DNA of 64,000 nucleotides. Source: Rhizoclosmatium globosum (taxonomy: Eukaryota > Chytridiomycota > Chytridiomycetes > Chytridiales > Chytriomycetaceae). Numbering within the stretch: position 1 is the stretch's first letter; each line of letters begins with the position of its first letter. The stretch covers positions 62,001 to 126,000 of the forward strand of contig MCGO01000031.1 in assembly GCA_002104985.1 (NCBI GenBank). Direction: 5' to 3'. The notes under the pieces are model-generated. The model was not told the DNA's origin, did no database searches, and saw only the letters and a list, made by a program, of their open reading frames with translations. Shown here in pieces: positions 24,094 through 47,182 of the stretch. A program made the position numbers and the translations under genes.

Positions 24094-25305
24094 ATGAACA
24101 TGGATCCAGTACCGCCACCAACAAAGAAGGGCCGCCCACGAAAGGATGCCACTTCGGCCTCAGACAAAAGAGCAGCACAAAACAGAGAAGCTGCTAATCG
24201 GTACACCCATCGCTCTGGACACATTATTACCATACTAAACCTGACCAAAGGTATCGACAGCGAAAAGACGAACGAATCAAACAACTCGAACAAGAAAACG
24301 AAATGCTCCGACGTGAAAATGCGAACCTGCGAGAAACAATGCGCAACTTCAGCCTGGGCCTCGTTGCCAAAGCCTCTGCTTCTGCTTCCCAAACTGCTTC
24401 CCAAACACCTGCTGCCACTGCTCAGCCATACCACCCGCTTCAAGCGGCGGCTACACCTACCGCCGCCGTGGCTACAGAGTCGCCGGATGGCTGGCTCGAT
24501 GACGCCCTGAACGCCCTCGATCAGTTTGGTCCTCCGCAAGTCCTGGCCACTCGCTTTGCCCTGAAGAGTCTGGAGAGTCTTCAGGGATGTCGCGAAGTCG
24601 ATGAGATGTTGGATCTATTCCTGGTATGTTGATGCTTCACAACGAGGGAGAAACGAGCATGACATCTGGGAATCACAACTAACATACCTTACGTCTGTAC
24701 AGATTCAAGCGCAATGCTCAGATCAAAACCAAATCCGTCGATATTTCATCAAAATTCTCAAACTTCGCTCAAAGATATTCGCACGTTGTACTCCTCAAGA
24801 CTATGAAAAGGTGATGGAAATCATTGAAATCTGCAAAGTAAACAACAGAGCCCACGTTGTGAGTATTCTTGCTTCATACCACGCTTAAACGATATTAATT
24901 TGTCTATTCCAGAAACATCTGTACGAAACAACTGGACTTTGTGATGAATCATCCATGAATAGCCCACCAGCCTCCTCCTCAGAAGCCGTCCAATCCAATG
25001 CACTCCCTTATCCCGTCCTATCATTCCGCCAAGCAGCCATAACCTGCGCCCCAACAGTTCTTGCCGCCCAACAAGAACTCGACTCCCTCTGTACACTCTT
25101 CACAACCCAACTTTCAGTCACAACCCCACCACCTTCCCTCGAAGAACGAAAGATCCAACTCTTTGAAGGCCGGAAACTCGAAAACAAAATCCTGGACGCG
25201 TGTAGTCTTGAGGACCGGATACGGTTAGGGTTCTTGTTGGAGACTTGGAGGGAGGTTGGGGCAGGAGGGATTGAGCGGGTGTTGTTGGATGGATTGCAGG
25301 AATAA
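24094..25305 (+). CDS. bZIP-1, bZIP factor with two C-terminal helical modules
   Basis: Exons 24094-24200, 24251-24623, 24703-24858 and 24913-25305 close in phase (342 aa). The N-terminus is proline/lysine-rich (TKKGRPRKD, AT-hook-like). The basic region QNREAANRYRQRKDERIKQLE is split by intron 1 and a zipper follows (LEQENEMLRRENANLRETM). Module 1: LKSLESLQGCREVDEMLDLFL, then a helix ending KIFARCTPQDYEKVMEIIEI. Module 2: LDSLCTLF, then LENKILDACSLEDRIRLGFLL. Introns fall after the first helix of module 1 and between the modules. It should bind DNA as a dimer in the nucleus. First gene of the array, divergent from the HET gene. Confidence 0.88.
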
Positions 25306-26039
25306 ATAATAATTGTAATTCTGTTTTCACATTGAAACTTCTGTTCTAATTTTTTCACGTTTGGTCGTGATGAGGGTGTGTCTCGTGATAAGTGTGTCAT
25401 ACGGATAAGGTTGGAAGATGTAGCAACGAAGTGTATTTAACTCGGCTGTATGACTATTTCAATTGCTTTCATTGATTATCATTGTTCCAAATGAACCCTT
25501 GATTATGATCCGGTGTACTCTTTGAAGGGTCCAGCCCCAACAGACCCTTAATGCCGAAAGGTTCTTGCTGCTTAGCCCATCGGAGTCACATGGGTCAGCG
25601 GCAAGAAAAACTTGAGGCCAGGCTCTATAATCAAAGGTTTCTTACATGTACAAGGGCAATTTTTAAGAACTATAGCAGTTTTGATTTTCAATCATGAGTG
25701 TGTCTACAGTCCATAAATTTGGACTTCATCCCCTTCGAATACTCATGCGTTGAAGTATCGTGCTGCTGAGTTTAACAAATGTTCAAGGTTGGAAATATCA
25801 CTTGGTTGCTCATGTAACTAAGCATTCTGGTTAAGTAATTCTTACATTATTGAATCGGTTATATGTCTGTTATTAGCCACATAATTCACAGCAATCAGTA
25901 ATCGGTTTGAATTTTTTTCTTAAGTGGCTTGGGGTTACCCTGATGAGAAGAGGCCGGCCTTTTTTCTATTTTGATCAAACGTCATCAAAACGTATCACAT
26001 CCCACTTGCTTTACCAATTCAACGGGAATCGAAGCATCC
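25306..26039. other. Intergenic region with fold-back element
   Basis: This 734-bp gap between bZIP-1 and bZIP-2 holds no credible ORF. It contains a strong imperfect palindrome at 25562-25607 (annotated separately) inside a wider imperfect inverted repeat (CCTTGATTATGATCC near 25497 against TATAATCAAAGG near 25626). Confidence 0.55.
25562..25607. repeat. 46-nt imperfect hairpin
   Basis: TTCTTGCTGCTTAGCCCAT pairs with ATGGGTCAGCGGCAAGAA across a short loop, with about three mismatches in an 18-19 bp stem. It could be a small MITE-like fold-back element or a structured RNA. No family recognised. Confidence 0.6.
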
Positions 26040-27704
26040 ATGCCACCCAAGAAGCGAGCAGCTCCAGAGACAGACGACCTGGATGCAGCTACTACTCCAC
26101 AAGAGAGAAGAGCTATCCAAGTACGGTTGGCACAGCGTGCCTTCAGAGAGAGACGAGAGAACCGGATAAAGGCAGGTGGCAGGATACACTGCCATTGCAT
26201 AATAACTGTGACTACCAGGAACTTGAGGCAAGAGTCGAAGAGCTTACCACAGCATCCATCACCGGCGGTTGCGCAAACTGTTCCTCAGAGCGCAAAAAGA
26301 CATCCGCCTTTCTCCAACACATTTCAGCGCTTGAACAACGGATCCGACAGCTCCAGAACGAATGCGAAGTGCTCCGCCAAAAGTGTCCGCTGTCAAAACA
26401 CTCAAGCGAAAGCCTGAACCACCACAACCCCCACCTTGGGTCTCTGATGCACTCTGCTTCAGCGAGGGAATCAAGTCCGGTGCAGCAGTCCTTTTCTCCC
26501 TTCTTTATGACCCAAACTAGCAACAACTTGCAAAACTTCCAGGCATATCCTTCTGCCAATTTACAGATGCCAAGCACATCCTCGCCACAGCAAGCCTTCT
26601 TTCCTTCAGTTATGCCGTCGACCTCCTCAGTGGCAGTTGGTAGTTTGATTCAAACTGTACCAGTCCAACAACCCTTATCAACAAACTCTGCCAGTCTTTT
26701 GAACCCCACTACCGCTGCTTCAATCAACTTGCTTGGTTCGACTGCGGCTGAACGTTTCGGAGGGCCTCCGCAAACTGCTTTTGCTCAAACTGCCTTCCAT
26801 GCGATTCCGTCTCTCATCTCCTGCAAATGGGTCCAAGTCATGCTTGACTCTTTAGTGGTACTTAAGCCTCTTTCATGCCCAAGCGATATTAATGTATTCT
26901 TTAGTCTCAGTCTAATTGTAACGAAAAGGAAACTATCAGGAACTACGCTTTCAAATATCTTGAAGCCAAATATAAAATGTTGGACGAATGCAGTCCTGAT
27001 GATAAAGCAAGGGCTTTGGAAGTGATTGAGGCTATTAGAGACCAGAATCGTATTCATATGGTGTGTGGCTAAACCCTTGTGAGACAACGAGCAAAGTAAC
27101 ATTTGTGGATATACTCGTCGGATGACTGACTATGTACTCTTCAATCGATGTATGGTTACAGTGTAGATGGGCGGTTTTCTGATCCATACTATCTGCGAAC
27201 CCTTTTATCCTTTTTCTTCTTATCTCGCCAGTCCCTAACGTCTCACACACACCCAGGATTACATGTTCTCCTACGCCCACACACACCAAACCCAACCCTG
27301 TCCTCTCCCGCCAGCAACAAACCAAGACCGCCTCCCAAATACCGAGTACCTGCAACAACTCATCTTCCAATCGATACCGTCTCTACAACAACACGAACAT
27401 CTTTTGAACGAATTGTTCAACTTAATCGGCGCGACGAGTCGATCCACGCGGCGAGAAGAGAAAGTGGAACGGTTGTTGCAGCTTGTGAATGTTCGAAACA
27501 AAATTTTGGACCTTTGTGTCGACGGGGACCGGATTCGTGTGCTTGGGTTGTTTGAGCGATGGAGATGTGAAAGGGACGAGAATCGTGCGATTGTTGTGAG
27601 TGCTTGTTTGTTATTCTTGATATCGTTCACTGAAAATGACATGATAGAACGAATTGCTCCAGGGTGTGATGACGGACAATATTTGTGGATTGCATGAGTG
27701 TTAA
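26040..27704 (+). CDS. bZIP-2, bZIP factor with two C-terminal modules
   Basis: Exons 26040-26171, 26219-26857, 26911-27060, 27257-27595 and 27663-27704. Starts MPPKKRAAPETDD. Basic region RLAQRAFRERRENRIK, then intron 1 (26172-26218) with a GC-AG border (AAG|GCAGGT), then the zipper ELEARVEELTT. A CANC motif separates it from a second coiled coil (LEQRIRQLQNECEVL). A long Ser/Gln/Pro linker follows. Module 1: FHAIPSL ... then YLEAKYKMLDECSPDDKARA, ending at HM. Module 2: SIPSLQQHEHLLNELFNLI ... VRNKILDLCVDGDRIRVLGL. The last 14-codon exon is inferred from a GTGAGT donor and a CTCCAG acceptor. Confidence 0.83.
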
Positions 27705-27906
27705 TTTGGAATAGGGTTGTGTGTTATTCCCCTTTGTTTATTGGACAGTTACCTGAATATGTAGTGAATAATTATTATGATGTTTGAATCCATTCCGACG
27801 ATATTGATCTCCTGCAGAAATCCGTTAATAACGTAATCATGGTGAGAAAGACGGCGATATTCACTTCACAGTGACAAAGTAAAGCATCTTAAAAATCTTC
27901 TCCAAA

Positions 27907-29489
27907 ATGGACCCTCCTCCGCCTCGGACCCCTTCTCCCCACCCAGATCCAGACACATCCAAGCCCAAGCGCTCAGGCCGGCCCCCTCTATCGAACAACA
28001 AACGAACTGTCCAGATCCGAATGGCTCAGCGAGCTTGTAAGTGTCAGCGGATCTACGCCTTACCTAATCAATAATTCTCAAAAACATTAGACCGAGAGCG
28101 TAAGGAAAACAAGATTAAAGAGCTAGAAGACCGGGTCGCATTCCTTACTTCCTCGTCCCCGGCTCCGTGCCTGTCCTGTGCAGACCTTCGCACACGGACC
28201 GAAGAATGCCTTGCCCAGGTTGCCATTCTCAACCAACGTATCACGGAATTACAGCAAATATGTGGAATCACTCCTTCCGTCTCCGGAGTGACGAGTGGTG
28301 GCATCAACGGGATTTGGTACACACAGCCCCAATCTCTTACCAATGTTTCAAGGGCAACCATGAGCCCAGTACGAAGCGATTCAGGATTCGTCACCACCAC
28401 GACCACGAACACCATGATTCCAAGATCTTGTGATAGCCCTGTTCGTCAAAGCACTGATTTAAGCTTCTCGGCGCCGATGCTTCGAACTTCGGCGAATTTG
28501 TCTCATGACCAGTCACTCGCCAGCTTTCCTCCGTGAGTGCTGTGTCAATTGACAATCAAGTAAAAAAAGTGGTGGTATCGGCGCAAGCAAAATTCGGGCC
28601 CATGAATATGGAGCCTTGTCGACGGGCTTTGCGAGATCTTGGATCTTTGCAAACGAGTGCTTGGGTGGATGTATTTATTGATAACGTTATTGTAAGTACA
28701 CACTTTTTGTCTTTTCCCTTCTTTTTTGTGATACTGATAACGGATCCTGAAACAAATGTCACGAAAAAAAAGATTCAATCTCAGATGACGGATCCGTATG
28801 AAATCAAGAAACATGTCATTCGGCTTATGCATGCAAAGTACAAGATGCTTGATTCATGTACTATTATGGATAGGGTGAAGGCCCTTGAGATTATTGAGGA
28901 CGCAAAGAAAGAGCATCGTCGTCATTTGAATTATACATATGGCTGTGCGCGTATGGTCGCTGGTGATGGCGGGAAAGCTGTTAAGCTGGAACCTACAGAA
29001 TATAATGAGACTGAGATGCTCGTGGAGTCTGATCCAGTCTCATTCAAAGAGAGTGTGAGAGCGATACCTTCACTACAAAACCCTACGGCCATTCAAGCCT
29101 TAGATCAGCTTTGTGACTTGTATTCGGTAAGTTTTTTATAGTTTAGAAATCGCATTGATGACTGATTGGTAATTTACAAAAAAAAAAGATCGCTGCAAAG
29201 TCCAAAAGTAACGAGGAACGTGAAAATCTGTTATTCCATATGATGGAGTTGAAAACACTGTTGCATGATATGTGTGCGAATCAAACCGAAAAAACAAATG
29301 TGAGTGTCAGAATTTTTAGAGTGACTATTACTCATCATGAAAATCAGTTCATACTCGCCATCGAGGTGTCTCGAGAGAAGCCTCAAAACAAACGCATAAC
29401 TGTGAGTATTTGTTGTATCTTTTCCGATATATGCTTAAATCTACTGAAAGGGAAAGTTCCTGGAGGATCTGCAATATGGACTGGACTGA
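27907..29489 (+). CDS. bZIP-3, bZIP factor with two C-terminal modules
   Basis: Exon 1 is 27907-28036 and exon 2 begins at 28091. Later exons are 28773-29126, 29189-29299, 29348-29401 and 29451-29489. Basic region RMAQRAYRERKENKIKELE, zipper, then a CLSC motif and a second coil (VAILNQRITELQQIC). Module 1: KFGPMNMEPCRRALRDLGSL, then RLMHAKYKMLDSCTIMDRVK. Module 2: VRAIPSLQNPTAIQALDQLC, then HMMELKTLLHDMC. The frame changes between the linker and module 1 around 28440-28535. An intron from CCT|GTTCGT to CGCCAG is the best phase-correct solution I found, but it is not certain. Confidence 0.78.
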
Positions 29490-29602
29490 AAGCAATAATA
29501 TGCTGTATATATAATTAAATCAATGCTATTTCTTGTTCCTTTGTTTTACTCTCGCCGTTCTTCATTGACAAGATTTGCACGGAAAACAAATCATCGTTTC
29601 AG

Positions 29603-31165
29603 ATGGGGCCAAAGCGAAGAGGGGCTTCTTCGGCACCAACTCAGGATGAAATCACAGACAACATGTCCATAGAGGAACGAAGGTCCTTACAGAACAGACT
29701 TGCACAGAGAGCGTTTGTGAGTATTGACGAGTCTTGTCAGCAGGCTGTAACTGACACCTAACTGATCGCTACTGTCAGAGGGAACGCAAAGACAATCGAA
29801 TCAGAGAACTCGAGTCCAAGTTGCCGATCTTCAGATGCAGTTAGGGTTAATCCAGGGCGGCGGCTCGAGCACCGCCGAACCCGCAAAGCCCAACTTGAAC
29901 GTGCACCTTCCGCCTGAACCTTCGCCCCAACACTGTGTCCATTGTGCGTATGAACGAGGTCGATCTGCCGCGCTTTCGGCCCAGGTTTCAATGCTTCAAC
30001 AGGACAACTCGCGGCTTTCCCAGCTCTACTCAGCTCAAGTCGCTGCGATGCAACCTTAATTGCCCCTTGGAACCCTATCGTACCCAATACCATTCAAACA
30101 CCATCATCCTCCTCTTCCTCGTCTTCCTCCCTGAACCACCAGCAATCACAGGTCCATCCGCTCCTCCAACGACCCCAGATGACTCATCCTATGCTCTTCA
30201 GCGCCCTTACAAAGAATGATTGGGAGAAAGCTATGGCAGACAGCCCGAATGAATCCAGAAACTCTTCAGAAACATCATCAGGAACAGCTGCAGAACAGTT
30301 GTACGGCCCCCTCCAAATATCTAATTCCCGCGAAGCCCTTAAATCACTCCCGTCTATTCGCGGAACTCAAGCCATGCAATATGTGGATGACATGTCGGAT
30401 GCATTTTTGGTATGTTGCCCCCATATCATTACTCATACACGAGTCGATCCTTACGTAAGGCCAACCCAAATAGGCTCAGTCAAAGAGTTCTTCTGGAAAA
30501 GAAATCAGGAAACAAGTCATTCGACTGCTTTATTCGCGCACAAAGATACTGGATGCGTGTAGCCCTATTGACCGGTTAAAGGCGATCGAGATAATGGAGG
30601 CAACCAAAAACCAGTTTAAAGTGCACATGGACCATATGTATGCCATGTATGGAAGTAGTGCACCAAAAATAATTATGGGTGTGAAGTTCGACATGGGTCT
30701 CCGCATGGCAGTCATTCGAGTGGTGGAGGCAACAACTCGAATAATAATGCAACAGGATCAGCTAGTCCCTCTTCAGCTATATTGGAAGTCTTTGAAGAAA
30801 CGTTCAACAAGCAGTCACTATCATCGCATATATCGGGTCCTCCTACCCCAAACCTCAAAACGCTCAAAAAGGCCATGAACCTTGTGCCATCCCTCACAAA
30901 CCACCCCATCATTGACGAACTATGCAATCTGTTTGAATTTCAAGCGCGATGCACGGATCCGAAGGAGCGATGCGAAACAATCTTCAAATTTATTGACGTC
31001 AGAAGCAAGATTTCGGACGTTTGTAAAACGGAGGAAGAAAAGATGCAGTTTCATATTGCCATGGAGATTGGTCGTGCAGAGAATAGGTCGCTTGTGGAGG
31101 AAATGTACCGGTCTGTGGAGAGTTCATTGCAGGAGCATGAACGTATTGCTGGATTTAGTCTGTGA
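29603..31165 (+). pseudogene. bZIP-4, frame-broken bZIP factor with two C-terminal modules
   Basis: Exon 1 is 29603-29716 (MGPKRRGASSAP...) and exon 2 starts at 29779 with the basic region RLAQRAFRERKDNRIRELE. The frame breaks at 29820/29821, where one base appears missing compared with its paralogues. The zipper, a HCVHC motif and a second coil continue in another frame. Further frame changes lie at about 30040-30130 (possibly an intron) and about 30660-30700. Both modules are still recognisable: QLYGPLQISNSREALKSLPS ... SRTKILDACSPIDRLKAIEI, and LVPSLTNHPIIDELCNLFEF ... VRSKISDVCKTEEEK. It is either a recent pseudogene or carries base-calling errors. Confidence 0.72.
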
Positions 31166-31266
31166 ACAACCTCTCGTTATTTTCGCCAAGTACCAAATAT
31201 AATTAGTTTATTTTGCATTACTCACTTTGTTACTCTAAAACAAACGCTGAAACAGCACTCGGCAAG

Positions 31267-32708
31267 ATGCCCCCAAAGCGAAAGCCTGCACCCAAAGACG
31301 ATGACGAAATGGATCCAGCAGAGAGGCACAAAGTAGCCAATCGAGAAGCTCAACGGAAGTTTGTACGTCTGCATCACCTTCATCGCCTTCCAAAACTGAC
31401 CCTTGAAACAGAGAGAACGAAAGGAGAACCGTATCAAAGTGAGAACTGGATACTCTCCACTTATAACTACTATTAAATGATACATACTTCACCAGGAACT
31501 GGAAGCCCAGGTTGAGCAGCTTCAGGCACAACTTGATATCAAATCCTCTTCCTCAGACCACCCTCCTCCAGCTTCCTCTTCAGCATCATCAGAACTCAAT
31601 ACACTCAAATCCGAAGTTGCCCACCTTCGGTCAAGAGTCAACTATCTCGAAGCCGAAAACACTGAACTGAATCGACGTTTGGAATCCCTCCTCCCACCTG
31701 CATTCCAACTCCCCTCTCAAATCCACCACATCCATACTATGCATCAACCTCAGATATCTCCTACGCACCACCTATAGCCCCATCCCCACTCACATCAACC
31801 CTCAGACCCCAATCAGCATCAGAAATATACGGCGTACCCGTATTCGGATCCCTTCTACACGACCTCAAATCCCTCCCCTCCCTCCAAAATTCCACAGACG
31901 TGGACTCCATGGTGAACCTCTTTGTCGATCAATCCCAGCTACGCGACTCATTCCAAATCCGGAAACGGATATTCCTGATGCTGAAATATAAGTACCGGAT
32001 ACTGGAAGCCTGCAGTATGGTGGACCGGTTGAAAGCGATTGAGATTATGGAGAAGGGGAAGAGGGTGCATGCTGCTCATTTGGTGAGTTGAGGACAAACC
32101 CCCCAATTAGTTGATGGATCTAAAATGGGCCGATTTGTGAAGAAACATATGGACAATCATTGGGAGGGACTTACTTTGAGTGTGAGGATCTGCCTGAGAT
32201 TCCTGCGTCGGAACAAGTCTCGCTGCAGTGGATAACTTCAAACGTATCCTCGAATTCGTTCCTAGCCTGGCGGGACATGAACATCTTGTTAATAACATGT
32301 TCAAGCTGTTCATTGTATGTGGTCCTGGTTTTTTTTTTAAGGTCTTTTGATTCAAACTGATGGAGACAAACCAGCATATGACGATGACAAGGGATTCGGT
32401 CGAGAAAGTTAAATTATTCTTCAGCTTAGTTGACTTGAAAAACAAGTTGTTCTCGCTGTGTAAGTCTGAGGAGGACTGTAATCGGGTAAGACAACCGCTA
32501 TCACATTGCCAGCTCCTGTAGCTAACCTCTCTTTCAGTTTTCGCTGGCGCTAGAAATTGGACGGCAAAACAACAAGGGCTACGTTGTAAGTACTCTGATG
32601 TTTCCTGGCGGAGCTATTTGTATTGCTCACTAATCATGGACTTTGTAGGAAGACTTATTTGAACAAGTCGAAGCAATCTTGGAGCGGCCACCATTATTTG
32701 TTGAATAA
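31267..32708 (+). pseudogene. bZIP-5, bZIP factor with two C-terminal modules, several frame changes
   Basis: Starts MPPKRKPAPKDDDE. Basic region NREAQRKF (intron) RERKENRIK (intron) ELEAQVEQLQAQL, with a second coil LRSRVNYLEAENTELNRRL. Frames then change near 31690-31760, 32140-32165 and 32215-32225, all in the same (-1) direction. Module 1: LKSLPSLQNSTDVDSMVNLF ... YKYRILEACSMVDRLKAIEI, ending AAHL|GTGAGT. Module 2: LEFVPSLAGHEHLVNNMFKL ... VDLKNKLFSLCKSEEDCNR, then exons FSLALEIGRQNNKGYV and EDLFEQVEAILE to the stop at 32708. Not all breaks can be explained by introns I can support. Confidence 0.7.
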
Positions 32709-33278
32709 TAAAACGTATCATTCATTCCAGAAGCTCGTTCTCTGATTGATGACTACAACTGGTGGACTTAAGCCGTAACTCGAATGCATCTAGACATGCC
32801 TGACGTGAACAGTAATGGCGTTTGAAATTCTCAGATAAGGTGATATTGCTGATACCTTTCCAGAACTTGTTACCATTTTTGCCATTGTGGCTTGTGTTGA
32901 AAGACACATCGAAAAAGGTAGGGTGAAATGCTGGTCTCTGATATCAGAATGAGAAGACGTAGGAAGTTTCGATTGTGCCCTGGTCATTTGTGCTTTGTCT
33001 GTCAAAATGAAGCCGATGCTTGACTGCATTTCGCAGAAGGTTCACTCTCAAGCCCTTTCATACCATCAAAACATCTCGTTTTGCACACTTTGATGAACCT
33101 AATGATCCAGATACAATTTCCAATCCACAGTTTGTCACAGCCTCATCCGAGCATATCTTTCATCCCATCACCGTCATCTCCATTCGAAACCTCATCATCA
33201 ATTTCGGCCCTAATTTTTTTATAAAAATAACTCAAGGCCACATAGGGTCCAAGACTTCTCGGGGCGGATAACGTTTTG
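32709..33278. other. Intergenic region, bZIP-5 / bZIP-6
   Basis: 570 bp. Short ORFs on both strands look non-coding. No repeat or RNA gene seen. It should contain the bZIP-6 promoter. Confidence 0.45.
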
Positions 33279-34079
33279 ATGACAGTCCACAACGAAAGCG
33301 GAGGGACATCAGGGACTTCCGGAACCCAACGCCCCCAGTCCGCTTCCACTCACATCCAGTCTGATGACATTCCGGATCATTCAGACGACGACCAAGCGGA
33401 CCAACCAACTGAGAGAACCGCTCGACGAACACTCCGAAACCGTCTTGCCCAACGAGCCCATCGTGCGAGGAAGGAACAGAAAATCAAGTCCCTTGAACAG
33501 CAAGTCAGCGAACTCTTGGAGCTCTGCAATCAACAACAACAGCAAATCGAGAAACTTTCTTCGGCCAGTACTAGTGCACCATCATCGTGTGCAAACTGCT
33601 CTGCAAAGGACAAACGAATCGAAGAGTTGACAACCCTCGTGAGTTCCCAAACACAGAAGCAATTCCAAACAAATCAGCAAATTTCTCCGGTGACAGCATC
33701 ACCTCCCGTGATGGACCCTATGCTTGGTTTCCATTCAGTTTCCACAATGAGCAATAGCCAGTTTGCATCCTCATCGTCTCAACCATTTAGAATTCAACCA
33801 CAAATTGCAATGTTCCAACAACAGCAACAACAGTTACCACAGCATCAACAGCGGATTTCGCATCAACCGCTCTCATTCGGCCTTACGTCCCAACAACAGC
33901 CACAGCCTATATTGAACTCACATTCTTTGTTAATTCCTCCAACCATCAATCCAATTGCATCCATCAATCAAAACCAATCCATGCAGCATCAGCAACAGCA
34001 ACAGCAATATTCTATTATGTATAATGGCTTCAGACGAGCGTCTCAGCCGAATGTGTTTCCAAGGAAGGATTCAAAGTGA
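33279..34079 (+). CDS. bZIP-6, intronless bZIP factor without C-terminal modules
   Basis: Single exon; the ATG at 33279 gives 266 aa. Basic region RTLRNRLAQRAHRARKEQKI, zipper LEQQVSELLELCNQQQQQIE, then a CANC motif and DKRIEELTTLV. The rest is Gln/Ser/Pro-rich with several glutamine runs, typical of an activation domain. It lacks both helical modules and all introns, unlike its neighbours, so it may have lost them or been retroposed. Probably a nuclear activator; targets unknown. Confidence 0.85.
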   Translation: MTVHNESGGTSGTSGTQRPQSASTHIQSDDIPDHSDDDQADQPTERTARRTLRNRLAQRAHRARKEQKIKSLEQQVSELLELCNQQQQQIEKLSSASTSAPSSCANCSAKDKRIEELTTLVSSQTQKQFQTNQQISPVTASPPVMDPMLGFHSVSTMSNSQFASSSSQPFRIQPQIAMFQQQQQQLPQHQQRISHQPLSFGLTSQQQPQPILNSHSLLIPPTINPIASINQNQSMQHQQQQQQYSIMYNGFRRASQPNVFPRKDSK

Positions 34080-34450: not shown

Positions 34451-35126
34451 ATGACTGCTCCATCCTCTTCTCCTGTTCCTGTGTCGTATCCAGAGCCTGT
34501 TGACAGTGATACGTTGGTGACTAAGCCAGTCACCGGCCGAAAGCGAAAGTGTCTTGACCCTGAAGAAGCTGCTGCGAGGAAAGCAGAGCAGAACAGATTG
34601 GTGAGTTTCTTCTTTTTATTTGTTTAATGTGTGTTGTCGAAATAGCTAACCTGTTTTTTAACCTGAGTAGGCTCAAAAAGCATTCCGAGAACGCAAAGAC
34701 CTTCGAATCAAAGAACTTGAAGTCAAAGTCGCTGTCCTCACCCAACTCACCGCATCCTCTTCTTCAACCAACACAATCAATGCAGAATTGCTCGAAAAGA
34801 TTCGGATATTAGAGGAACGATGCGCTGGATTGGAACGGGAAAATGTCAAGTTGAAGGACGTTGTGTCAAAGGTGGAATCGCAGGCAACTCCGCCAGTTTC
34901 GCCACCAGCCCAGTCAATTGCAGGTTACCAACTACCTCTAAGTTGGACATCGGCGGGTGTCCAGCTCCCAATCCCATCACCATCGCATTTGACTGTGAGT
35001 CACCCACTGTCAAAGGGTCTTGCCATCACTTCACCGGTCCCGTCTCTAATGCATCTCGAAAGCGATGCTGAATCGCAGGAGAGCCAATCGCAACGGAATC
35101 GAGGCTATTTCAGCACAGTCTGCTGA
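34451..35126 (+). CDS. bZIP-7, short bZIP factor without C-terminal modules
   Basis: Exons 34451-34600 and 34671-35126 with a 70-nt intron, 201 aa. Basic region ARKAEQNRL, interrupted by the intron, continues AQKAFRERKDLRIKELEVKV. Zipper heptads continue through LLEKIRILEERCAGLERENV. The remainder is a Ser/Pro-rich tail. The intron position inside the basic region matches other array members, but the two helical modules are absent. Likely a dimerising transcription factor, possibly a competitor or partner of the module-bearing members (inference). Confidence 0.85.
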
Positions 35127-35519: not shown

Positions 35520-36450
35520 ATGCCAAGGGATGGGGTGAAATCGGCTTCGTTATCGCCAGACGGTCATAGTGATATGTCAGCGACTCGCAGGAAGAAGGCG
35601 GACCCAGATGAGTATGTTCAGGATCCTGTAGAAAGAAGGACGATTCAAAATAGAGTAGTGAGTCAGCTTGTTTTGCTTTGTTGGACTCAATTTGGATTAG
35701 TGGTCACCTTACTTATCCATATTTTTACTTCTCTAGGCCCAACGAAACTTTAGAATGAGGAAAGATAATCGAATCAAAGAACGTGAGTCACTCTTGAATA
35801 GGGCTTATCGTTACTACAAATTACTCAGCTACTCATCTTAAAAAATAGTGGAGCTCCAACTGTCCCTTTTGACCGAGTCTCGCGCCCACCCTGCCGTCAA
35901 AATTGATGCGTCTGAATCTGTCAATCAACCAGATAATACCATGGCTGAAAAGATTGCACAACTGGAGAAGCGTGTGCGAGAACTTGAAGAAGAAAACCAA
36001 GCTCTCAAACGAATCAAAGTACCCGATGTTGCATCTCCAAATACTCCAATTTCGGCGTATCCAACTTCGAACTCATTCCATCCTCAGCAACAGCATTCAT
36101 ACCCTTCTTATCCCATGTACGCCTACCCTCCTCCTCCTCCTCCGTACCCTTACTATTATCCTCATCCACCGCCACATTCCATTCCTCAACATGCTCCGGT
36201 AATGCCACATTGGGCACAGCCTCTACAACCCATGATTCCTCCTAATATGTGGTCAGCAGGGCACCCACCAACCACAGTTCCCGCTCCTCTTCCACCAAAT
36301 ACACTTTCATCTTCTACATCATCAATCGCATTAGCCCCTATTCCTACCCCAGTCTTACAAAAGTTTGAATCCCCAGATTTAGTCTCTCCTGCAGCTGAGA
36401 GACCGTCTGGCCATCCATCGTCATCAGGAGCTCCTCCTTCTGCTATGTGA
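35520..36450 (+). CDS. bZIP-8, bZIP factor with Tyr/Pro-rich tail
   Basis: Exons 35520-35657, 35737-35782 and 35849-36450, phases closed. Basic region RRTIQNRV (intron) AQRNFRMRKDNRIKE (intron) LELQLSLL, and a second coil LEKRVRELEEENQALKRI. A Tyr/Pro-rich segment (YPSYPMYAYPPPPPPYPYYY) follows and resembles the tyrosine-rich segment of bZIP-9 to -12 and -16. The C-terminus is Pro/Ser-rich, and the helical modules are missing. It may represent a module-less relative of the tyrosine-rich subgroup. Confidence 0.85.
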
Positions 36451-36533
36451 TTTCTAGATTACTACATGTCTGCTTGCTGTTAACGTCATGCCCAATAAAA
36501 AAGCTTACGAGAGAAAAGCAAACTTCAACAAAA

Positions 36534-37859
36534 ATGCCTCCAAAAAGAACCGATGCTGTGGTCTCGTATAAGGACGATGACGATGACGAGAAAGCAGCAA
36601 TTCGTTCCGCTCAGAATCGAAAAGCCCAGCGATTGTACCGCCAAAGGTAACAGTCTCCGAAGCTTACCAATCCCTTATGACTCACCCAATTACTTTCCAG
36701 AAAAGAGGCTCGGATCCGTGAACTCGAAGCCACTGTTGCGCGACTGGCTGCAACCGAAGAGAGCGATACCGTAACACCAAGAGAGGCTGAGCTTATGAGG
36801 AGGATTGAGATCTTGGAAACCGAAAACAGTGCGCTGAAAGCCACTGCCTCCCAACCTTATCACCCAACATATCCTATGTATCCTATGCACGGATACCATC
36901 CTTACTCATACTCGTATTATCCCTCATACTGTGAACAAGGCTACAATCACGCAATACCGCCGTCACATGCTCCTTTTTGTCAATCGCCGAGTAACCCTCA
37001 TTTTGCTCCACACCTGACTGATATGACAACCTGCGAGTCCATTGAATCGAATAATCCAACTTTTGAATCAACTGCCATCGAACGTATTTTGCAGGAGTTA
37101 CCGAGTCTCAAGAATTGCTCATCGACAGTACACCGATTTTGCAGGCTATTTGAAGATATCTGTCGCATAGTGAAGTCGCCAAAGAGTTTGAAGGACGATG
37201 TCATGTCAAAGGTGTGCTCAATGTGGTTGGACGTGTCGGTACAAAAGTTTCGTGTCTTGACTTCTTGTGCGACGAATGCCGAAAGGATGAAGGCCATAGT
37301 CGCGATTTCGGATCACATGTTTGAAGATAATCGAGAATCAATGGTGTGTTTTTGACATAAACTGACAAAATCACGATGTTCAACCAATTCGTGCAGATTC
37401 TTGTTCAAACTCAGCTTGTTGAAGCCTCGAAAGCATTTAACCGTCGTAAAGCAGGAAGTGCGTCAACGTTTTTAGCTGTAGTGATTGATGAATCTCTTGA
37501 GACTGATTCATGGAGTCGATATGAAAACGAGTGTTCCAAACTTGATTCCATACAAAGTCATATTGCTCTTGTTCAACAATTGTTTCGCGAAACAAAGGTT
37601 TGCCACGCTTTGTGTCAGAGACGAGAAATTCATCTCTAATGCTTTTTAGTTTCTTTTGACAGAATCGCGGACTTTATCGCGCTCTTCTCACCTACTTCAA
37701 TCCAGAAATCTACATGTGGCGAGTTTACAAATCCAGATTTTGCTTCTTTGTTCGTCGCAGGATCGGATTGAAGTTGAGAAGATATTTGATCGATCTCGAA
37801 AAGAATCGAGCAAAGATGTGGAAACAATAGTAAATGCGTTGGACACGCTGAAGGTTTAA
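36534..37859 (+). CDS. bZIP-9, Tyr-rich subgroup with two C-terminal modules
   Basis: Exons 36534-36646, 36701-37343, 37397-37597 and 37650-37859. Starts MPPKRTDAVV. Basic region SAQNRKAQRLYRQR, intron after AG of an Arg codon, KEARIRELEATVARL; second coil IEILETENSALK. A Tyr-rich segment follows (YHPTYPMYPMHGYHPYSYSY). Module 1: LQELPSLKNCSSTVHRFCRL ... FRVLTSCATNAERMKAIVAI. Module 2: LDSIQSHIALVQQLFRETK ... LQIQILLLCSSQDRIEVEKI. The last exon uses the CTTTTTAG acceptor at 37648-37649; the GACAG acceptor 22 nt further on would put it in the wrong frame. Confidence 0.87.
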
Positions 37860-38051: not shown

Positions 38052-39312
38052 ATGACGCCGAGAGCCCAAGACTCCTCCTCAGATGATAAAGAAGACAAGA
38101 AAGACACCGATCGAGCTGCCATCAGAGCCGCCCAGAACCGGAAGGCCCAGCGCTTATATCGGCAAAGGTGAGTAATGTGAGATCCTCGAATTAAATGTTT
38201 ACTCAGCCAACCGTTCACCTGACACCAGAAAGGAGGCCCGGGTCCGCGAACTCGAAGCTACCGTGGCAAAGATTGTGGGAGGGAGTGAATCTGCTCCGAC
38301 TCCGCGGGAGGCGGCTCTATTAGAACGAATTAGGCAGTTGGAGGAAGAAAACTCGATCCTCCGAACAAACCAACATCACTATACTACCCCTACATATCAT
38401 CCATATGCATATCCTTATTACCCTGCTTACCACTGGCAGTACTATCCTCATCCTCCTGCACCTGTCAATCATTTTACGGCACTACCCTACCAACTCCCCA
38501 CCCATGAACCAGATTTTGTTAAACCCATCGAAAATGAGTATTTAGCTCATTCTACATCTATGGAACATGATTTGCTCTTAATTCCAAGTCTCAAGCCACA
38601 CTCGGAGTCAGTCATTCGACTTTGTCAGACATTTGTTAACGTCATTCAAGCGATTGAGTCCTTTTATGGAGCTGACCATGTGGTACGAGGAACCATTGCT
38701 ACACTTTGGTTAGACTGGTTGTTGCAAAGACACCACCTGCTCTCAAAGTGTACAGCTGCCGATGAACGCCTAAAAGCTCTAACGATAATATCAAACTATT
38801 TATTTAACGAGCATAGAGAGAAAATGGTATGTGCACTGGTGCCCTTGTCCTTTGATCTAATTTCCTTTCGCCACTCCAGACTCTCTTACGAGATCACCTT
38901 TCTTCCCTTGTCCCCCAGAGCATCGAATTAAGCCCACGGCAAGGTCAGTCTGAGCCGGAGGAGCATCTGCATTCACAGTTGGCAAACGAGTTTTGCTCTC
39001 TCCCATCAATGCACAATTACCCCGGTCTTGCGAGTCAAATATTTCGTGAGCGTCAGGTATTTTCCCGTTTCTTGCTTGTTATAGTTTTATAATTGCGTAC
39101 TCGGCTAGGAATTACTATCTAATTTCAAAAAGTTGAGTGCAGTCGAAATTCGGGAACGTAGAATAGTCCTCGCGAGTTTACAAATACAGGCACTTCTCAT
39201 GTGTTCTCCGTGCGATCGTATTGAAATGGAACGAATCACGGATTGTACTCAAATCGAAAGTGGTGATGTCGCCCTACTTGTGAACACATTGGATCAGCTT
39301 GATGTAGAATAA
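38052..39312 (+). CDS. bZIP-10, Tyr-rich subgroup with two C-terminal modules
   Basis: Exons 38052-38167, 38229-38826, 38919-39056 and 39109-39312, phases closed. Basic region AAQNRKAQRLYRQR | KEARVRELEATVA and coil LLERIRQLEEENSILR. Tyr-rich segment YHPYAYPYYPAYHWQYYPHP. Module 1: LLLIPSLKPHSESVIRLCQT ... HHLLSKCTAADERLKALTII, ending EKM at the intron. Module 2: FCSLPSMHNYPGLASQIFRE ... LQIQALLMCSPCDRIEMERI. Exon 1 is 116 nt, as in bZIP-11, -12 and -16. Confidence 0.88.
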
Positions 39313-39554: not shown

Positions 39555-40781
39555 ATGACACCCAAACCACAGGACTCCTCGGCCGAAAACAGTCAAGATA
39601 CGAAAGAGTCCGAAAGAGCTGCAATCAGAGCAGAACAGAATCGAAGGGCGCAGCGATTGTACCGGCTTAGGTTAGATCTTGATATACCAAACTGTAACTC
39701 ATCCCGCACCAAGAAAAGAGGCTAGAGTGCGTGAGCTCGAAACTATTGTTGCTGAAAGGACTACTACCACTCCGACACCACGAGAGCTAGAGTTGCTTGA
39801 ACGTATCAAACATCTTGAGGACGAAAATACCATGCTCCGAGCTAATCAACACACGTACCCCTCATATGGCTATCATCCATATACATACCCGTATTATCAG
39901 AATCCGTATTGGAATTTTTATCCTCAAAGTGGGCCAGCCCCTGTTTATCCTTCAGTATCTCTTCCAACCCCTTACTACTACAACCGTGATACAACATACC
40001 CTCATTCAAAATCAAATACTCTTGAGACTACGTTGCTGGGACTTCAAAGCCTCAGATCACACTCCGAACTGGTGAATGAGTTTTGCGGAACACTCACCCA
40101 CTTCTTCAATCAAACATCACTAGGGCAGACAGATGGGCCCACACCAGCTAATGAGGTGAAAGTGCTTTGGATTCAGGTGTTGGCGCAACGGTTTCGAATT
40201 CTCTCGAAATGTGATGACTGCTTGGATCGCCCAGCGGCTTTAAGAGCAATATCCGATTACATATTTGGCGAGCATCGAGAGTGCATGGTTGTAGATTTTA
40301 GATTTGGTGTCATCTCCTAAATACTAATGGCTTTGTATTCCAGATTATGGTTGCAGATGATCTTGTGTCTGAGGGCGAGGCAAAATATAACCAGCCACAA
40401 TTAAATTCAGAAACCACCATCAATGATAGTGACGTGCAATTAGAAAATGAATATAAACAGCTTTCATCATTACAAAATGATATGGGTCTTGTGCGAACGT
40501 TCTTTCATGCAACCAAGGTTTACCTTTCTTTGAATGATGCTGGAACTCTGATATTATCGCGCTAGGATTTCTTAAACACTGGCAAAAAGCTCGATGCTGA
40601 AATACTGCATCAGCGAATCCTGTCTCTGACAAGCCTACAAATTAAAGTGTCTCTCATCTGTTCTCCGGATGACCGAATAGCGTTGGAGATAATGATAGAT
40701 CGTTATAGAAAGTGTTGGAATGATAATATTTCCAAGCTATCCCATACATTTACGGGACTTAACGTTGGTCCATTGTCTTAG
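39555..40781 (+). CDS. bZIP-11, Tyr-rich subgroup with two C-terminal modules
   Basis: Exons 39555-39670, 39714-40287, 40344-40517 and 40566-40781. Starts MTPKPQDSSAEN. Basic region AEQNRRAQRLYRLR | KEARVRELETIVAE; coil LLERIKHLEDENTMLR; Tyr-rich segment YGYHPYTYPYYQNPYWNFYP. Module 1: GLQSLRSHSELVNEFCGTLT ... FRILSKCDDCLDRPAALRAI. Module 2: LSSLQNDMGLVRTFFHATK ... LQIKVSLICSPDDRIALEIM. The donor after module 1 (ATG|GTTGTA) is weak. Closely related to bZIP-16 at the right edge: the last exon is 216 nt in both. Confidence 0.87.
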
Positions 40782-41168: not shown

Positions 41169-42414
41169 ATGACACCAAAGCAAAACCACTTCTCAGCCAA
41201 TAGCAAGGAAGGCACAAAAAACCGCGATAAGGCTGCAAATAGAGCTGAACAGAATCGACGGGCACAGCGGTCGTACCGGCAGAGGTTAGATCTTGAGATA
41301 CCAAACTGTAACTCATCCCATACCCAGAAAGGAGGCCAGAGTCCGCGAGCTCGAATCCATTATAGCAGAAATAAACTCTGCAGCCGCTTCTACTCCGACA
41401 CCACGAGAACTGGAGTTGTTAGAACGTATCAAACAATTGGAGGATGAAAATACCACACTTCGGGCAAATCAACACACTTATCCGTCACACGGCCATCATC
41501 CATATTTATACCCGTATTATCAGAATCCTTATTGGAATTATTATCCTCAAAGCGAACCGGGTCCTGCTTATCATCCTCTTTGGAACAGCATGTCTGTTCC
41601 AAACCCCTCTTACCACACCACAGATGAATCCTATCCACGGTCAAATGCAAAAACTCTTCAATTTTCTCTGCTAGAACTTCAAAGCCTCGCATCTCAGTCT
41701 GAGTTGGTTAATGAGTTTTGTGAAACACTCACACAAGTTTTCAATCAAACTCAGACGGGGTACCAGGATAGCTCGGCACCTGCGAATAATTATATATGCA
41801 GGCTTTGGATTCGAATGATAATTCAAAGGCTTCAGATTCTTTCAAGATGTGATGACAACTTGGATCGCCCTGCAGCCTTGAGTATAATATCTGACTACTT
41901 GTTTGGCAAGCATTGTAACTCTATGGTAAATTGAAATGAATTTACGGCTGGTCTCTCATTGTGTTAACTTTAGATAATCGTGGCAAATAACCTTTTGTCT
42001 CCATATTCGGCAACCCAACACCAGCCAAAATTAGTACCAGCTGATTCTCACATCGACGCAAAATTAGAAAGTGAGATCAAACTTCTTTCATCGTTACAAA
42101 ATGATTTGGGTCTTGTGCAAACCTACTTTCGTGAAATCAAGGTATATACACCCATCGTTTTTGAGTGACAGCGAACATTAAATTGACTTCGCACGTAGGA
42201 CTTCTTGGAAACCCAAAAACGGCTCAATAACGATATTTTTCGTCTTCGTCTTTTGCATAGTTTGGGTCTACAAATCAGAATCCTTCTCCTGTGTTCTTCA
42301 CAAGACCGAATCACAATGGAGTTCATTATAGATCGCTATAGAAAAAACTGGAAGGACGAAATATCCCAGGTAGTACACGCTTTGAACAGAATTGAAGTAG
42401 GGTCTTCTTCTTGA
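41169..42414 (+). CDS. bZIP-12, Tyr-rich subgroup with two C-terminal modules
   Basis: Exons 41169-41284, 41328-41925, 41974-42141 and 42199-42414. Basic region AEQNRRAQRSYRQR | KEARVRELESIIAE; coil LLERIKQLEDENTTLR; Tyr-rich segment HHPYLYPYYQNPYWNYYP. Module 1: ELQSLASQSELVNEFCETLT ... LQILSRCDDNLDRPAALSII. Module 2: LSSLQNDLGLVQTYFREIK ... LQIRILLLCSSQDRITMEFI. Exon 1 (116 nt) and exon 4 (216 nt) have the same lengths as bZIP-11 and -16, and even the intron-1 sequence resembles that of bZIP-11, so these are recent duplicates. Confidence 0.88.
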
Positions 42415-43167
42415 AATAAAAACGTTAAAAAAAAGGTTTACAACCGTAAAGCAAATGTGACTACGGCATCATTCTAATACTTGTTCGAATGTGTGAAGCA
42501 AAATGCGGTGAGAATTATGTTGTGTGTTTCCTTAAACATGGTAAAGCAGTGTTGGTTAATTATAACACTCTACTAACTGTAACACTGAAAAAGGTTACCT
42601 CCAGCCAATTTATCTCACCTAACGAGTATTCTGTCGACGTCTAGTTCAATCGAGCTGCGACACTGATGGGTGTGGCATATGACAGTCAGTCTAAAGGCAT
42701 CATCACCAGCTTCAAACAAGGCCCTGACAATCTCGCCACCCAAAGCTCAACTAGCTCGTTCAAATACTTTCAAAAATGGTACTGAACGCCTGTAAACTGG
42801 CAATAGCGGTCCGTATATTGTATTTGGATCTGGGATTTGGTTAACCAAAGTTTGGACGGCCTGTCACGGGCCTTATATTAGAATCAGACGCGGTTTGGTT
42901 CAAATTGTTTGAACGAAATGTTAAACTTTGAGGCTGACGTTCATTTCGAGTCATAATAGAATATAGCTGATATGCTGCTCGTGGCTGCTAGTATCATATC
43001 CTTCGCATTTCGCTTGCATTAACCCTTGTCGGAATCTATTGCACTATTGGCATCAATCATTGCAATATCTCGACAATCGGTTATATCTATCGAGATTCGC
43101 GACAAGCATTTGTAAAACCATCGGACTTCTATGCCAGAACATCCTTTGCTCGAATGTACCACAAATC
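42415..43167. other. Intergenic region, bZIP-12 / bZIP-13
   Basis: 753 bp without a credible ORF on either strand. No repeat or RNA gene recognised. It separates the Tyr-rich subgroup from the divergent bZIP-13/14 pair. Confidence 0.45.
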
Positions 43168-44469
43168 ATGCCACCAAAGCAAAAGCCGTCATCGAGCAAA
43201 GCCTCTCTAAACAAAACCGGACCATCCCCTCGACGCCAAAGACAAAATCGAGAAGCACAGAAACGATATCGAGAAAAGAGGAATCGGCTCTACCATGTAA
43301 ACTAAAAAGGATTTGAGTGGGTGTTTGTTTCTCAGTGTCTAAACAGGACCTCGAACGGCGATACGCTGAGCTCACGAATTCATCGAATTCTTGTGGGATT
43401 GCTGAAGTGGGATACGATGGCACTGGGACATGCTTCGAATGTGGTGGCATAGACGAGGTTGAGATACAGAGTCACCAGTTGACTCAACTCCAAGTCGAAA
43501 ATATGACGCTTGCTGCGATGATTCAGCAGAGTGATTTATTTGAAGCCAATGCGTGGGCGGCGGCAGAGGAAGTGCATCACAAACTTCACCATCTCCCCTT
43601 CAACGTCCCACCTGCCGCGGAGCCTCAGAAGCAACATCATCCACATGAAGCACATGAAATAGAAGACGTTGCTTCAGATGAAATAGTTTGGGAGGATCTC
43701 TTGAACTTCTCGGACTCCTCTAATCTGGATCCTGAAGACGATGCTTTAAACAAGAAAACGATGCAGAAAGACGTTGAAGCAACAAAACTAGACTTGGGAA
43801 ATGTACCTAGTCTGCGAGAATGCTCAGACTTGATAGATCAATTCGCGAATCTTGTCTTGAGCGCTGATGTAACTTCACTTTCCTCCTCCCAAAGTCAAAC
43901 TGAAATCCGGTTTAAAAGGACCTTTTCCGAACAAACCAGCATCAAAAGGCGATGGAGAATGTGCGAAAGGTCATGAATATGAAAATCACTCTAGTGGATC
44001 AATGCATTACGGAAGTGGAAAAGAACGAGGTTGTATTCATTTATTATTTGCTTTCCCTGCACACAATTTAAACCAATCATTTACAATTGCAGACTTTGAG
44101 AATCGTGAATGAATTGCGCGATAAGCGAGTGAAGCCGATTGTTCCTGTGCCCAAAGATATTCCAACAAGTTTTAATCATATTCCAGGCCTTGAAACGCGG
44201 GAAGCTACAAAACTACTTGATGAAATCATTGTCCATTTATTGGTGAGGCTGGATTTATTTGTTATAGGGCTTTCTTTGACTTCTCGACAGGAGCCGGAAT
44301 CTGTATCCGAGGTTTCTAATCTAGTGCAACTAAAGCGAAAAATTATGGATATGGTGTCGTCAGATACACATAAGGAAAAGGTAACGTTGAAGGACTTAAT
44401 GGACCAAGCTCAACAACGTTTCAGGCACTAGCTCTTCTTCATTTGCATGGATTTCCTCACGATTTATAA
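43168..44469 (+). CDS. bZIP-13, divergent bZIP factor with two C-terminal modules
   Basis: Six exons in phase: 43168-43296, 43347-43868, 43919-44029, 44093-44242, 44291-44380 and 44425-44469. Starts MPPKQKPSSSK. Basic region RQRQNREAQKRYREKRNRLY, intron, DLERRYAELT, with an interrupted coil. A CFEC motif, a His/Pro linker and an acidic patch (DEIVWEDLLNFSD) follow. Module 1: GNVPSLRECSDLIDQFANLV | DLF ... VMNMKITLVDQCITEVEKNE. Module 2: HIPGLETREATKLLDEIIVH ... LKRKIMDMVSSDTHKEK | ALALLHLHG. The 50-nt third intron and the 44-nt last intron keep the frame shared with bZIP-14. Confidence 0.85.
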
Positions 44470-45877
44470 ATATTTCGGCTAAATATTTAAAATAAATGTA
44501 TATTTGTTTCATACACAACAGGATAATTATATATACGACATTGAGGGGTGTGTCACCAAACACCTCTTTCATTCTCTCCTCGTGTGTTTAATTAAAGCCC
44601 TATATATAAGTCTACGAGGCGAGGAAACCCCGTTTCTTTCAGTGTGACGGGCAGCCAGTAACTGACTCCTGAGGGGCTTTGGATCATTCACCAGCCGTCC
44701 ATGAAATATTCTACTGGATGGAACTCCAAAGTTGCAGTTCTCACTGCATAAATTTCTGGAACAATCGGAATGTGTGTACCTCAAAATACACCAAGTGTCC
44801 TTTCGGCTATTATTACTGGACCATCTAAATACACATCAATCACACGACTATATTTTTGATATCTACAGATACTGTTTGTTGCTGCCCTCGCAGTTAAATA
44901 TCAATCCGTCGGCTACCATTGACCATAATCGAAAACCTTGGAAAGATTCAATGGGGTTGAAAGTCGTTTCTTATCATAAGATAGATGGATATTTCGAGTC
45001 GACGAGTTTGAGGTGGATTTTTTATCGTTTGAGATGCTATCAATCAAGTCAAGAGGTTAAAACAGAGGAGCCCGCAGAGAGATCTTCCCTCATTTCAAGA
45101 CGAAGTGGATACAAGGGAGGCACGATGGATGAAAGTTGGGCCGTGATGTGTCTCGTCCCATACTACTTTGGTTAATGGGGACAACCAATCAGTTACTCGC
45201 AGGCCAGCAGCAGTACGTCAACACAATTGGTCTCATTTATCGATTTAGATTAATTAGATAAACTCTAGTTTGATTTGATCTGTTCAGCGACGATATAATT
45301 CAAAGTAGTGACCAAAGGAAGGCGAACATTACGGACAAACCTCTTTGACGACGAAAGTCCTTTCAATCAGCCAGTCTGTTTAATCTATCTTGCTCAGTAT
45401 GGCGTCACCTTAGCCGTGCCTTACGTATGAAAACACTCAAAGCCGAAATTCCGAATCATATGTCTTACACAATACATCCTGAGTCTTTTACTTAAAACCG
45501 TCACTGAGCGAATTTTCGTGATTCACGGATACGTACTGAAGACATCACTGTGGTTGTTTCTACTCAACCTTTCACTTATTCAACGGACAAATGTATCGTC
45601 AAAAATATTTATGCAGTCATAGTAAGATACGAGACATTTCCATTTGATATTCATAGTCCATTTTCGACTGACCAGATTTGCCCGAATCATTTCGCAGACT
45701 CCTCAACATCGTTTTCTGCACACGATTAAAGCTGAAAGCTTTCGTGGCCTTCAGACAAGACAATATGGATTTCCGTCACGACTATGTTAATTGCCAGTTC
45801 TAAAATAACTATGGAATTTTGTGGAATAATGAAAGGCGATAACACAAATCGGTCGGATGGAAAGCAAGCTTTGAACT
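44470..45877. other. Long intergenic region, bZIP-13 / bZIP-14
   Basis: 1.4 kb, the largest gap in the array. It holds only one ORF of note (44732-45175, listed separately). Nothing else recognisable on either strand; it may be the remains of a lost array member or of an inserted gene. Confidence 0.45.
44732..45175 (+). CDS. ORF of unknown status, up to 147 aa
   Basis: The reading frame is open from about 44690 and ends at TAA. The C-terminal half (YHKIDGYFESTSLRWIFYRL and DESWAVMCLVPYYFG) has a protein-like composition, with Trp and Tyr at spaced positions, but I recognise no family. No bZIP or module motif is present. It may be the 3' fragment of a gene whose 5' part is degraded, or not a gene. 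Confidence 0.25.
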   Translation: MQFSLHKFLEQSECVYLKIHQVSFRLLLLDHLNTHQSHDYIFDIYRYCLLLPSQLNINPSATIDHNRKPWKDSMGLKVVSYHKIDGYFESTSLRWIFYRLRCYQSSQEVKTEEPAERSSLISRRSGYKGGTMDESWAVMCLVPYYFG

Positions 45878-47182
45878 ATGCCTCCAAAACAACCAGCTTC
45901 ATCAAGCAAAGACCCACTCACCAAAACCGGGCCGTCTCCTCGACGCCAAAAACAAAACCGAGAAGCCCAGAAGCGATATCGCGAAAAGCGGAACCAGCTC
46001 CATAGGGTAAATTTGATCCAAGAAGGTTGTAAAGTGGTTCTTGGGGGCTTATGATGTTCAACGCAGGACCTTGAACGACGATACGCGGAGCTGACAACGT
46101 GTACAAAGTCTTGCACGACTGGTGAAGCGGACAGTCCCGAAGAAGGACCCTGCAACGAACACGAACAACAACACTTGGCAGAGCTCCAAGCCGAGAATAT
46201 GTCTCTGACTGCCATGATAAAACAACGGGATTTATTTGAGGCAAGTGCTCTCGCGGCCGCCGAGCAATTCAATCGTACCCATCACCACACCATCACCATC
46301 GCTCCTGCCGCGGAACCTCAAAATCAACAAGATCCACACAATCCACAACAGAGTGAATACGTTGCTTCTGATGATATCGTATGGGACGAACTCTTGAACT
46401 TCTCGGATACCTCCGATTTCGAGACTGATGAGGTGTCTTCTTCAACCGAGTTGCTTCTTAAGCAACAAGACATCGAAATCACAAAGTCATTCTTGAGCAA
46501 AGTGCCAAGTTTAAGAGAATCGTCTGACCTGATCAATCAATTTGCCAGCCTTGTGATGAAAGCTGATGTAAGGATCTCTAAAGGTTGCAGTACCGCTAAT
46601 ATCCCTACTTTGAAGAGCCTTTTCCAGGACAATCAGCACCAACCGGCGATGGAAAATGTACGGAAAGTATTGGAAGTGAAGATCAAGCTGGTAGATAAAT
46701 GTGAGACCGAACCAGAAAAGGACGAGGTGAATAGATTCTTCATTTCACTAACTTCAACGTTCAAAGCTAACTCAGAATTACAGGCTCTTAGAATCTTGAA
46801 CGAGTTGCGCGATAAACGAGTGAAACCATTTAGTCCAATTCCTGCCCATATTCCGTCTACATTTCATCGTATTCCGGGCCTTGAAACCCGCGAGGCAACA
46901 ATACTTATCGATGAGTTGCTTTTTTATTTGATGGTGAGTAAGAGTGTTCTTTCGACAGACGTTTCTAAGGGTTCTTCAGGAACCCCAATCTTTATCGTCC
47001 CACTCTCCCCGTCTTCTTCAACTCAGACAAAATATTTTGGATATGGTTTCGTCGGATATGCACCAGGCCGAGGTAAAAGTGTTTGTTTTTCTGATTGATT
47101 TGATTCTCAAGCACATACCAACATACCATGTCAACAGACAATAGCCCTCCTTCATTTATATGGATTCCCTCAAAATTTGTAA
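45878..47182 (+). CDS. bZIP-14, divergent bZIP factor with two C-terminal modules
   Basis: Six exons in phase: 45878-46006, 46067-46567, 46616-46726, 46784-46933, 46980-47072 and 47138-47182. Paralogue of bZIP-13 throughout, with exons 1, 3, 4 and 6 of identical length. Basic region RQKQNREAQKRYREKRNQLH | DLERRYAELT. Acidic patch DDIVWDELLNFSDTSD. Module 1: SKVPSLRESSDLINQFASLV ... VLEVKIKLVDKCETEPEKDE. Module 2: RIPGLETREATILIDELLFY ... LRQNILDMVSSDMHQAE | TIALLHLYG. Last plus-strand member of the array, ending 76 bp from the convergent condensin gene. Confidence 0.87.

Follow-up and report, generated by a model that had tools for sequence, protein, structure and literature searches.

What kind of regulator is encoded by a head-to-tail run of basic leucine zipper (bZIP) genes in the chytrid Rhizoclosmatium globosum, and what is the paired segment that many of these genes carry downstream of the zipper? 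Both questions arise from a stretch of 64,000 nucleotides (the window, G000:C235:62001-126000, on contig MCGO01000031.1, here C235, of an assembly of 56.9 Mb in 420 contigs), in which an earlier reading of the DNA, hereafter the original prediction, had described fourteen consecutive plus-strand bZIP genes in 23 kb, most of them with a duplicated helical module that it did not recognise. Splice modelling recovers this array, placing fourteen plus-strand, head-to-tail bZIP genes (G1 to G14) between 24,094, where G1 starts, and approximately 47,180, and the basic-region motif (N/V/I)..A(A/Q)..(F/Y/H)R can be read in every one of them (for G3, G4 and G5, from the aligned haplotype contig C394). 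The interpretation that we favour, and to which we would give about an even chance, is that the array belongs to a chytrid bZIP family which has expanded and which bears a new domain at the C terminus, perhaps for interaction or oligomerisation.

Judged by basic region and zipper, the latter assessed by eye, the predicted array products are to be classed as bZIP transcription factors. Pfam was consulted for nine models or pieces, with G3, G5, G11 and G14 outside the scan; against the bZIP_1 (PF00170) cut-off of 27.6 bits, G1, G7, G8 and the deposited proteins BCR33DRAFT_786894 (P0002), HDU68_009399 (P0003) and BCR33DRAFT_825444 (P0004, which is G9) score above the threshold, G2, G6, G10, G12 and G13 fall under it at 20-26 bits, and the piece of G4 that was scanned contains no bZIP part. 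Positions that contact DNA differ along the array: at a basic-region position where Asn is usual, G2 has Val and G3 has Ile, and a later aromatic position is occupied by F, Y or H. Since these contact residues vary, the target sites of the paralogues may differ.

The module itself spans about 86 positions in an alignment of 19 copies (A1), the profile consensus of which reads L..LPSL......VDELC.LF, a variable gap and K.KIL..C...DR.KALEI.E, with one cysteine invariant in all 19. The A1 profile combines ten copies from the first position after the zipper (M1) and nine from the second (M2), which match it by construction, and G13 stands outside it. Two profile-supported modules follow the zipper in nine genes (G1-G5 and G9-G12), whilst G13 and G14 each have one clear module and one weak second copy, which was equalled by 1 and 5 of 300 shuffled sequences with the first profile and by 0 and 0 of 300 with a widened one. 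No module was found in G6, G7 or G8, for which 15, 95 and 24 of 300 shuffles were as good with the first profile and 9, 47 and 19 with the widened one. Where the original prediction had two copies in eleven genes, the module is thus present in 11 of the 14 array genes, with two firm copies in nine of these eleven and a weak second copy in the remaining two.

Separate profiles for the two positions avoid the circularity of A1. Eight of the nine M2 copies score higher with the M1 profile than any of 1,800 shuffles, nine of the ten M1 copies score higher with the M2 profile than any of 2,000, and the profile-profile probability of the M1-M2 match is 97%. Because profiles made from M1 only and M2 only match each other above shuffled controls, the two modules are, on sequence comparison, homologous.

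AlphaFold predicts four main helices per copy in P0002, an R. globosum protein in which both modules share one open frame, and likewise in M1 of G9. Ten-residue means of the predicted local distance difference test (pLDDT) lie mostly at 80-93 over the P0002 modules, at 79-96 in G9 M1 and at 41-82 in G9 M2, which is modelled at low confidence. The module is thus probably a folded helical domain; the helical character expected from the sequence reappears in the models of P0002 and G9 M1, and the alternative of a disordered segment is not borne out by them.

Searches of domain libraries with the modules gave no Pfam or NCBIfam match at cut-off (best Pfam expectation value (E) 0.004, weak and scattered), and a PDB sequence search returned similarly weak, scattered matches (best E 0.089), in keeping with the original statement that the module is unrecognised. 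Its further remark, that a DOG1 signature is lacking, agrees with hmmscan, in which DOG1 (PF14144) was not among the matches of the 19 copies at E<=5 or of two consensus sequences at E<=10, with the HMMER filters on. Some fungal bZIPs carry the domain DUF3425 after the bZIP region; this was not among the Pfam matches of nine models at E<=1 or of the 19 module copies at E<=5, and PAP1 (PF08601) gave no match at E<=1 in the nine scanned models or pieces. Whole-genome searches with PAP1 and DOG1 profiles were empty, as were their controls, and are hence uninformative. Whilst the bZIP part is of a known kind, the module would therefore fit none of the families tested (DOG1, PAP1, DUF3425). Nor was a description of it found in the available portions of the open literature on chytrid and early-diverging bZIPs and on R. 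globosum (PMC5415576, PMC8778642, PMC12115818, PMC10406608).

These results bear on an alternative that we consider improbable, namely that M1 and M2 belong to a helical fold already known, be it DOG1 or some other four-helix family, and have diverged so far that sequence comparison can no longer recognise it. The module resembles the Pfam DOG1 model (77 positions) in size, occupies the same place after the bZIP region and is all-helical in the models; as in the plant TGA bZIPs that bear DOG1, a helical domain lies C-terminal to the bZIP, but the array module is duplicated, fungal and without a detectable DOG1 match. The proposed fold comparison, made with full-length models, gave nothing clear: Foldseek returned 129 and 159 matches at E<=10, none of them at 0.001, and VIA-align gave, among the matches listed, general helical bundles, for which we claim no fold name. 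The comparison covers the best 50 matches of each search, and the bZIP helix included in the full-length models may hamper such searches.

The array is one of several in the R. globosum genome, an aspect that the original prediction did not mention. Searching the genome with the module consensus yielded 99 matches on 23 contigs at E<=0.1, haplotype copies included; on C235 these merge by eye into 29 module loci, of which 22 include a match at E<=0.01 and one of the weaker ones contains internal stops, and the search missed G13 and G14. C235 bears further arrays at 334-358 kb and 413-452 kb, and another, with weaker scores, is found on C301/C418/C162. In all four additional module loci that were inspected (L029-L032), a bZIP zipper half is seen by eye upstream in the same direction. 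Since the assembly holds two to three haplotypes of approximately 90-98% identity, module copy numbers include alleles: C394 is collinear with 18 kb of the window at 93-97% and matches a flank at 96%, C34 matches other parts at 93-94%, and C301, C418 and C162 match one another at about 90-98%.

Outside this species, a double-module protein is found in Siphonaria sp. JEL0065 (P0003, which shares 58% identity with P0002 across the two modules), in a record that is labelled UNVERIFIED_CONTAM. Both P0002 and P0003 share the bZIP plus M1-M2 arrangement of the array genes, but in the tree of modules they form a branch separate from that of the window genes. In Rhizoclosmatium sp. JEL0117, a near-identical counterpart of G2 (P0001) is without a basic region and ends after M1, and its gene model is likely to be wrong through an annotation error. 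Protein searches (182, 160 and 4,343 candidates) found no relatives beyond Rhizoclosmatium and Siphonaria; the third gave only two proteins although most of its 15 rows were from this genome, and absence elsewhere is not claimed. The suggestion of a lineage-specific family is to this extent upheld, R. globosum, Rhizoclosmatium sp. JEL0117 and the Siphonaria record being the only carriers seen so far.

A second feature that had escaped mention, and that is new here, concerns the zipper. In most genes, by eye, a short first zipper is followed by an insert and then by a second coil, and in five of the 14 the insert contains a CxxC motif: G2 (26219-26300), G3 (28100-28260), G4 (29823-30056, the window's own CVHC), G6 (33480-33680) and G13 (43347-43560). 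When G4 is read from C394, four of the 14 genes have a CxxC no more than 90 residues from the basic region, against 0.48 expected by shuffling. The motif was also seen in zipper-like frames at loci L003, L013, L015, L022, L030 and L031; these were judged by eye, rows that did not look zipper-like being dropped, among them frames in L005, L007-L010, L014, L017 and L019. Brought together in a parallel dimer, two such motifs could coordinate a single zinc ion or become linked by disulfides.

It is on this geometry that a second alternative is built, which we regard as no likelier than the first: that the proteins are redox or metal sensors, in which the doubled CxxC, joined by the conserved cysteine at the end of module helix C, would allow DNA binding to be switched by oxidative or metal stress. 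The excess of CxxC over shuffling, its occurrence at other loci and the invariance of the module cysteine are consistent with it, as is the basic region of most genes, which has the form AQ..(F/Y)R known from the Yap/Pap1 stress factors. Nevertheless, nine of the 14 genes have no CxxC, haplotype C394 does not show the motif of G4, a structural role is conceivable for the module cysteine, and PAP1 is without a match in the nine scanned models; moreover, the carriers of CxxC share descent, so that the shuffle count overstates their independence. The comparison with fungal Yap1/Pap1-type AP-1 bZIPs runs in both directions, the array genes mostly sharing N..AQ..(F/Y)R, a signature of that family, but differing in their mostly split zippers, paired C-terminal helical modules and tandem arrays, as well as in the PAP1 result. 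A broader version, in which the proteins would form a new class of chytrid sensor transcription factors, with M1-M2 binding ligands or partners, the CxxC split zipper acting as a redox or zinc clasp, the arrays supplying a receptor-on-DNA repertoire and paralogues heterodimerising to meet many substrates or stresses, is in our estimation distinctly less probable still.

How the favoured family could have arisen is suggested by introns at module positions, also new here and mostly in phase 0. Phase-0 introns follow helix B in M1 of G1-G4 and in M2 of G3, G5 and G9-G12, only G3 having this intron in both modules, and they follow the last helix in M1 of G1, G2, G5 and G9-G12 and in M2 of G2, the equivalence of places being judged by eye on the 19-copy alignment. 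A unit with phase-0 ends can be duplicated without a shift of frame, and the module may thus be an exon cassette with that capacity. In a tree of 27 module copies, each Siphonaria module groups with its counterpart in P0002 (support 1.000 for M1 and 0.998 for M2), which places the M1/M2 duplication of these proteins before their split, if the Siphonaria record is sound, and nine of 14 M1 copies group together. Paralogue modules are 13-54% identical, and the farther apart two genes lie in the array, the lower their identity (Spearman -0.73, as low in 40 of 5,000 permutations of gene order; nine genes, G13 and G14 left out), a trend to which the blocks G1-G5 and G9-G12 may contribute much. This pattern is consistent with a series of tandem duplications in which function was retained.

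Retained function is also suggested by comparison of haplotypes C235 and C394, in which the ratio of non-synonymous to synonymous substitution rates (dN/dS) is 0.12 for modules (45 silent and 20 replacement changes in 873 codons, six pieces from five genes) and nominally higher, at 0.17, for non-module sequence (1,270 codons, eight pieces). Between the paralogues G11 and G12, dN/dS is 0.22 in the bZIP part, 0.30 in the modules and 0.42 in the linkers. On these ratios the modules look to be under purifying selection, a conclusion that we regard as supported, as is the existence of a counterpart in another genus.

Several observations weigh against this account. The intron after M1 of G4 is in phase 2, which misfits a cassette; only nine of the 14 M1 copies group together, M1 of G9-G12 is placed beside M2 of those genes, and M1 of G14 lies among M2 copies, which speaks against a single old duplication; and in the window the linker between zipper and M1 has frame breaks in G3, G4 and G5 (27900-31800). 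The exceptions in the tree could be due to long-branch attraction or to a second history. The aligned haplotype C394 is without the window's breaks in G3-G5 but shows others in G3 and G4; the breaks reflect either errors of assembly or null alleles that segregate. That the array is a mere by-product of local duplication, with extra copies and modules of little function, would suit the frame breaks in both haplotypes and the strong divergence of the paralogues, but we think it very unlikely given the low haplotype dN/dS, the predicted ordered fold, the module pair kept in the Siphonaria record and the fact that the breaks, which differ between haplotypes, could be assembly errors.

The gene models, all on the plus strand, are as follows. 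G1 (24094..25305, four exons, Pfam bZIP_1 41 bits) has M1 at 24528-24858, over two exons, and M2 at 25009-25263, both placed by splice model and module profile. G2 (26040..27704, five exons), to which P0001 is nearly identical, has a split zipper with CANC, M1 at 26762-27060 and M2 at 27350-27595; its intron after the basic region (26172) was modelled as GC-AG. G3 (27907..29401, 3' end uncertain) has CLSC in the zipper insert, M1 at 28596-28925, M2 from 29031 and a linker frame break in the window haplotype; G4 (29603..31165) has CVHC in the insert, M1 at 30308-30629, M2 at 30842-31090 and two such breaks; and G5 (31267..32712) has M1 in one exon at 31837-32079, M2 from 32225 over three exons and one break. 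The genes in which no module was found are G6 (33279..34079), a single exon with CANC, G7 (34451..35126) and G8 (35574..36450). G9 (36534..37859), with M1 at 37059-37343 and M2 at 37505-37820, is modelled by AlphaFold, as is P0002, and the deposited BCR33DRAFT_825444 agrees with our model from the second exon on. G10 (38052..39312) has M1 at 38548-38826 and M2 at 38967-39264, G11 (39555..40781) has them at 40006-40287 and 40428-40730, and G12 (41169..42414), whose closest array paralogue is G11, at 41641-41925 and 42055-42363. In G13 (43168..44431), with CFEC in the zipper insert, M1 begins at 43767 and the weak M2 lies within approximately 44150-44428; in G14 (45878..47141, 3' end uncertain), M1 spans 46466-46777 and the weak M2 begins at about 46860.

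The original prediction also held that no foreign gene interrupts the array. In partial agreement, ARAGORN found no tRNA between array genes (20-50 kb), the one inter-gene open reading frame scanned has no Pfam match, and four inter-gene gaps yielded nothing in tblastn when array proteins apart from G3 and G4 served as queries; other foreign genes were not sought. Elsewhere in the window, a double-module bZIP gene lies outside the array on the minus strand (62732..63979; about 64-67% identity to G11 in matching pieces), as does a bZIP frame whose split zipper contains CSSC (50664..51134, minus strand), with no module match nearby. An open reading frame adjoining the array (23104-23865, minus strand) has a weak heterokaryon-incompatibility (HET) match (E 0.002, under the Pfam cut-off).

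On the interpretation that we favour, each full-length product would comprise a basic region, a usually split zipper, a poorly ordered linker and a C-terminal pair of homologous four-helix modules. The proteins would dimerise through the zipper and bind DNA as other bZIPs do, and the M1-M2 pair may act as a platform for protein interaction or higher-order oligomerisation that picks a partner or signal for each paralogue; the original prediction had put forward a ligand, partner or oligomerisation domain. There is a parallel in the plant TGA bZIPs, in which a C-terminal region, not detectably related to M1-M2, sets which partner or signal is in control. Serial tandem duplication, followed by diversification of DNA-contact residues, zippers and modules, would then have yielded a repertoire of regulators. 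For the lineage as a whole, one study reports a 3.25-fold rise in bZIP numbers in the ancestor that chytrids share with later fungi (PMC10406608). With a domain that is absent from Pfam but present at 29 loci on C235 and on 22 further contigs (alleles included), the genome of R. globosum would hold a considerable number of chytrid regulators that present annotation misses, and the array offers a concrete example, open to experiment, of how new regulators came about in a fungal lineage that diverged early.

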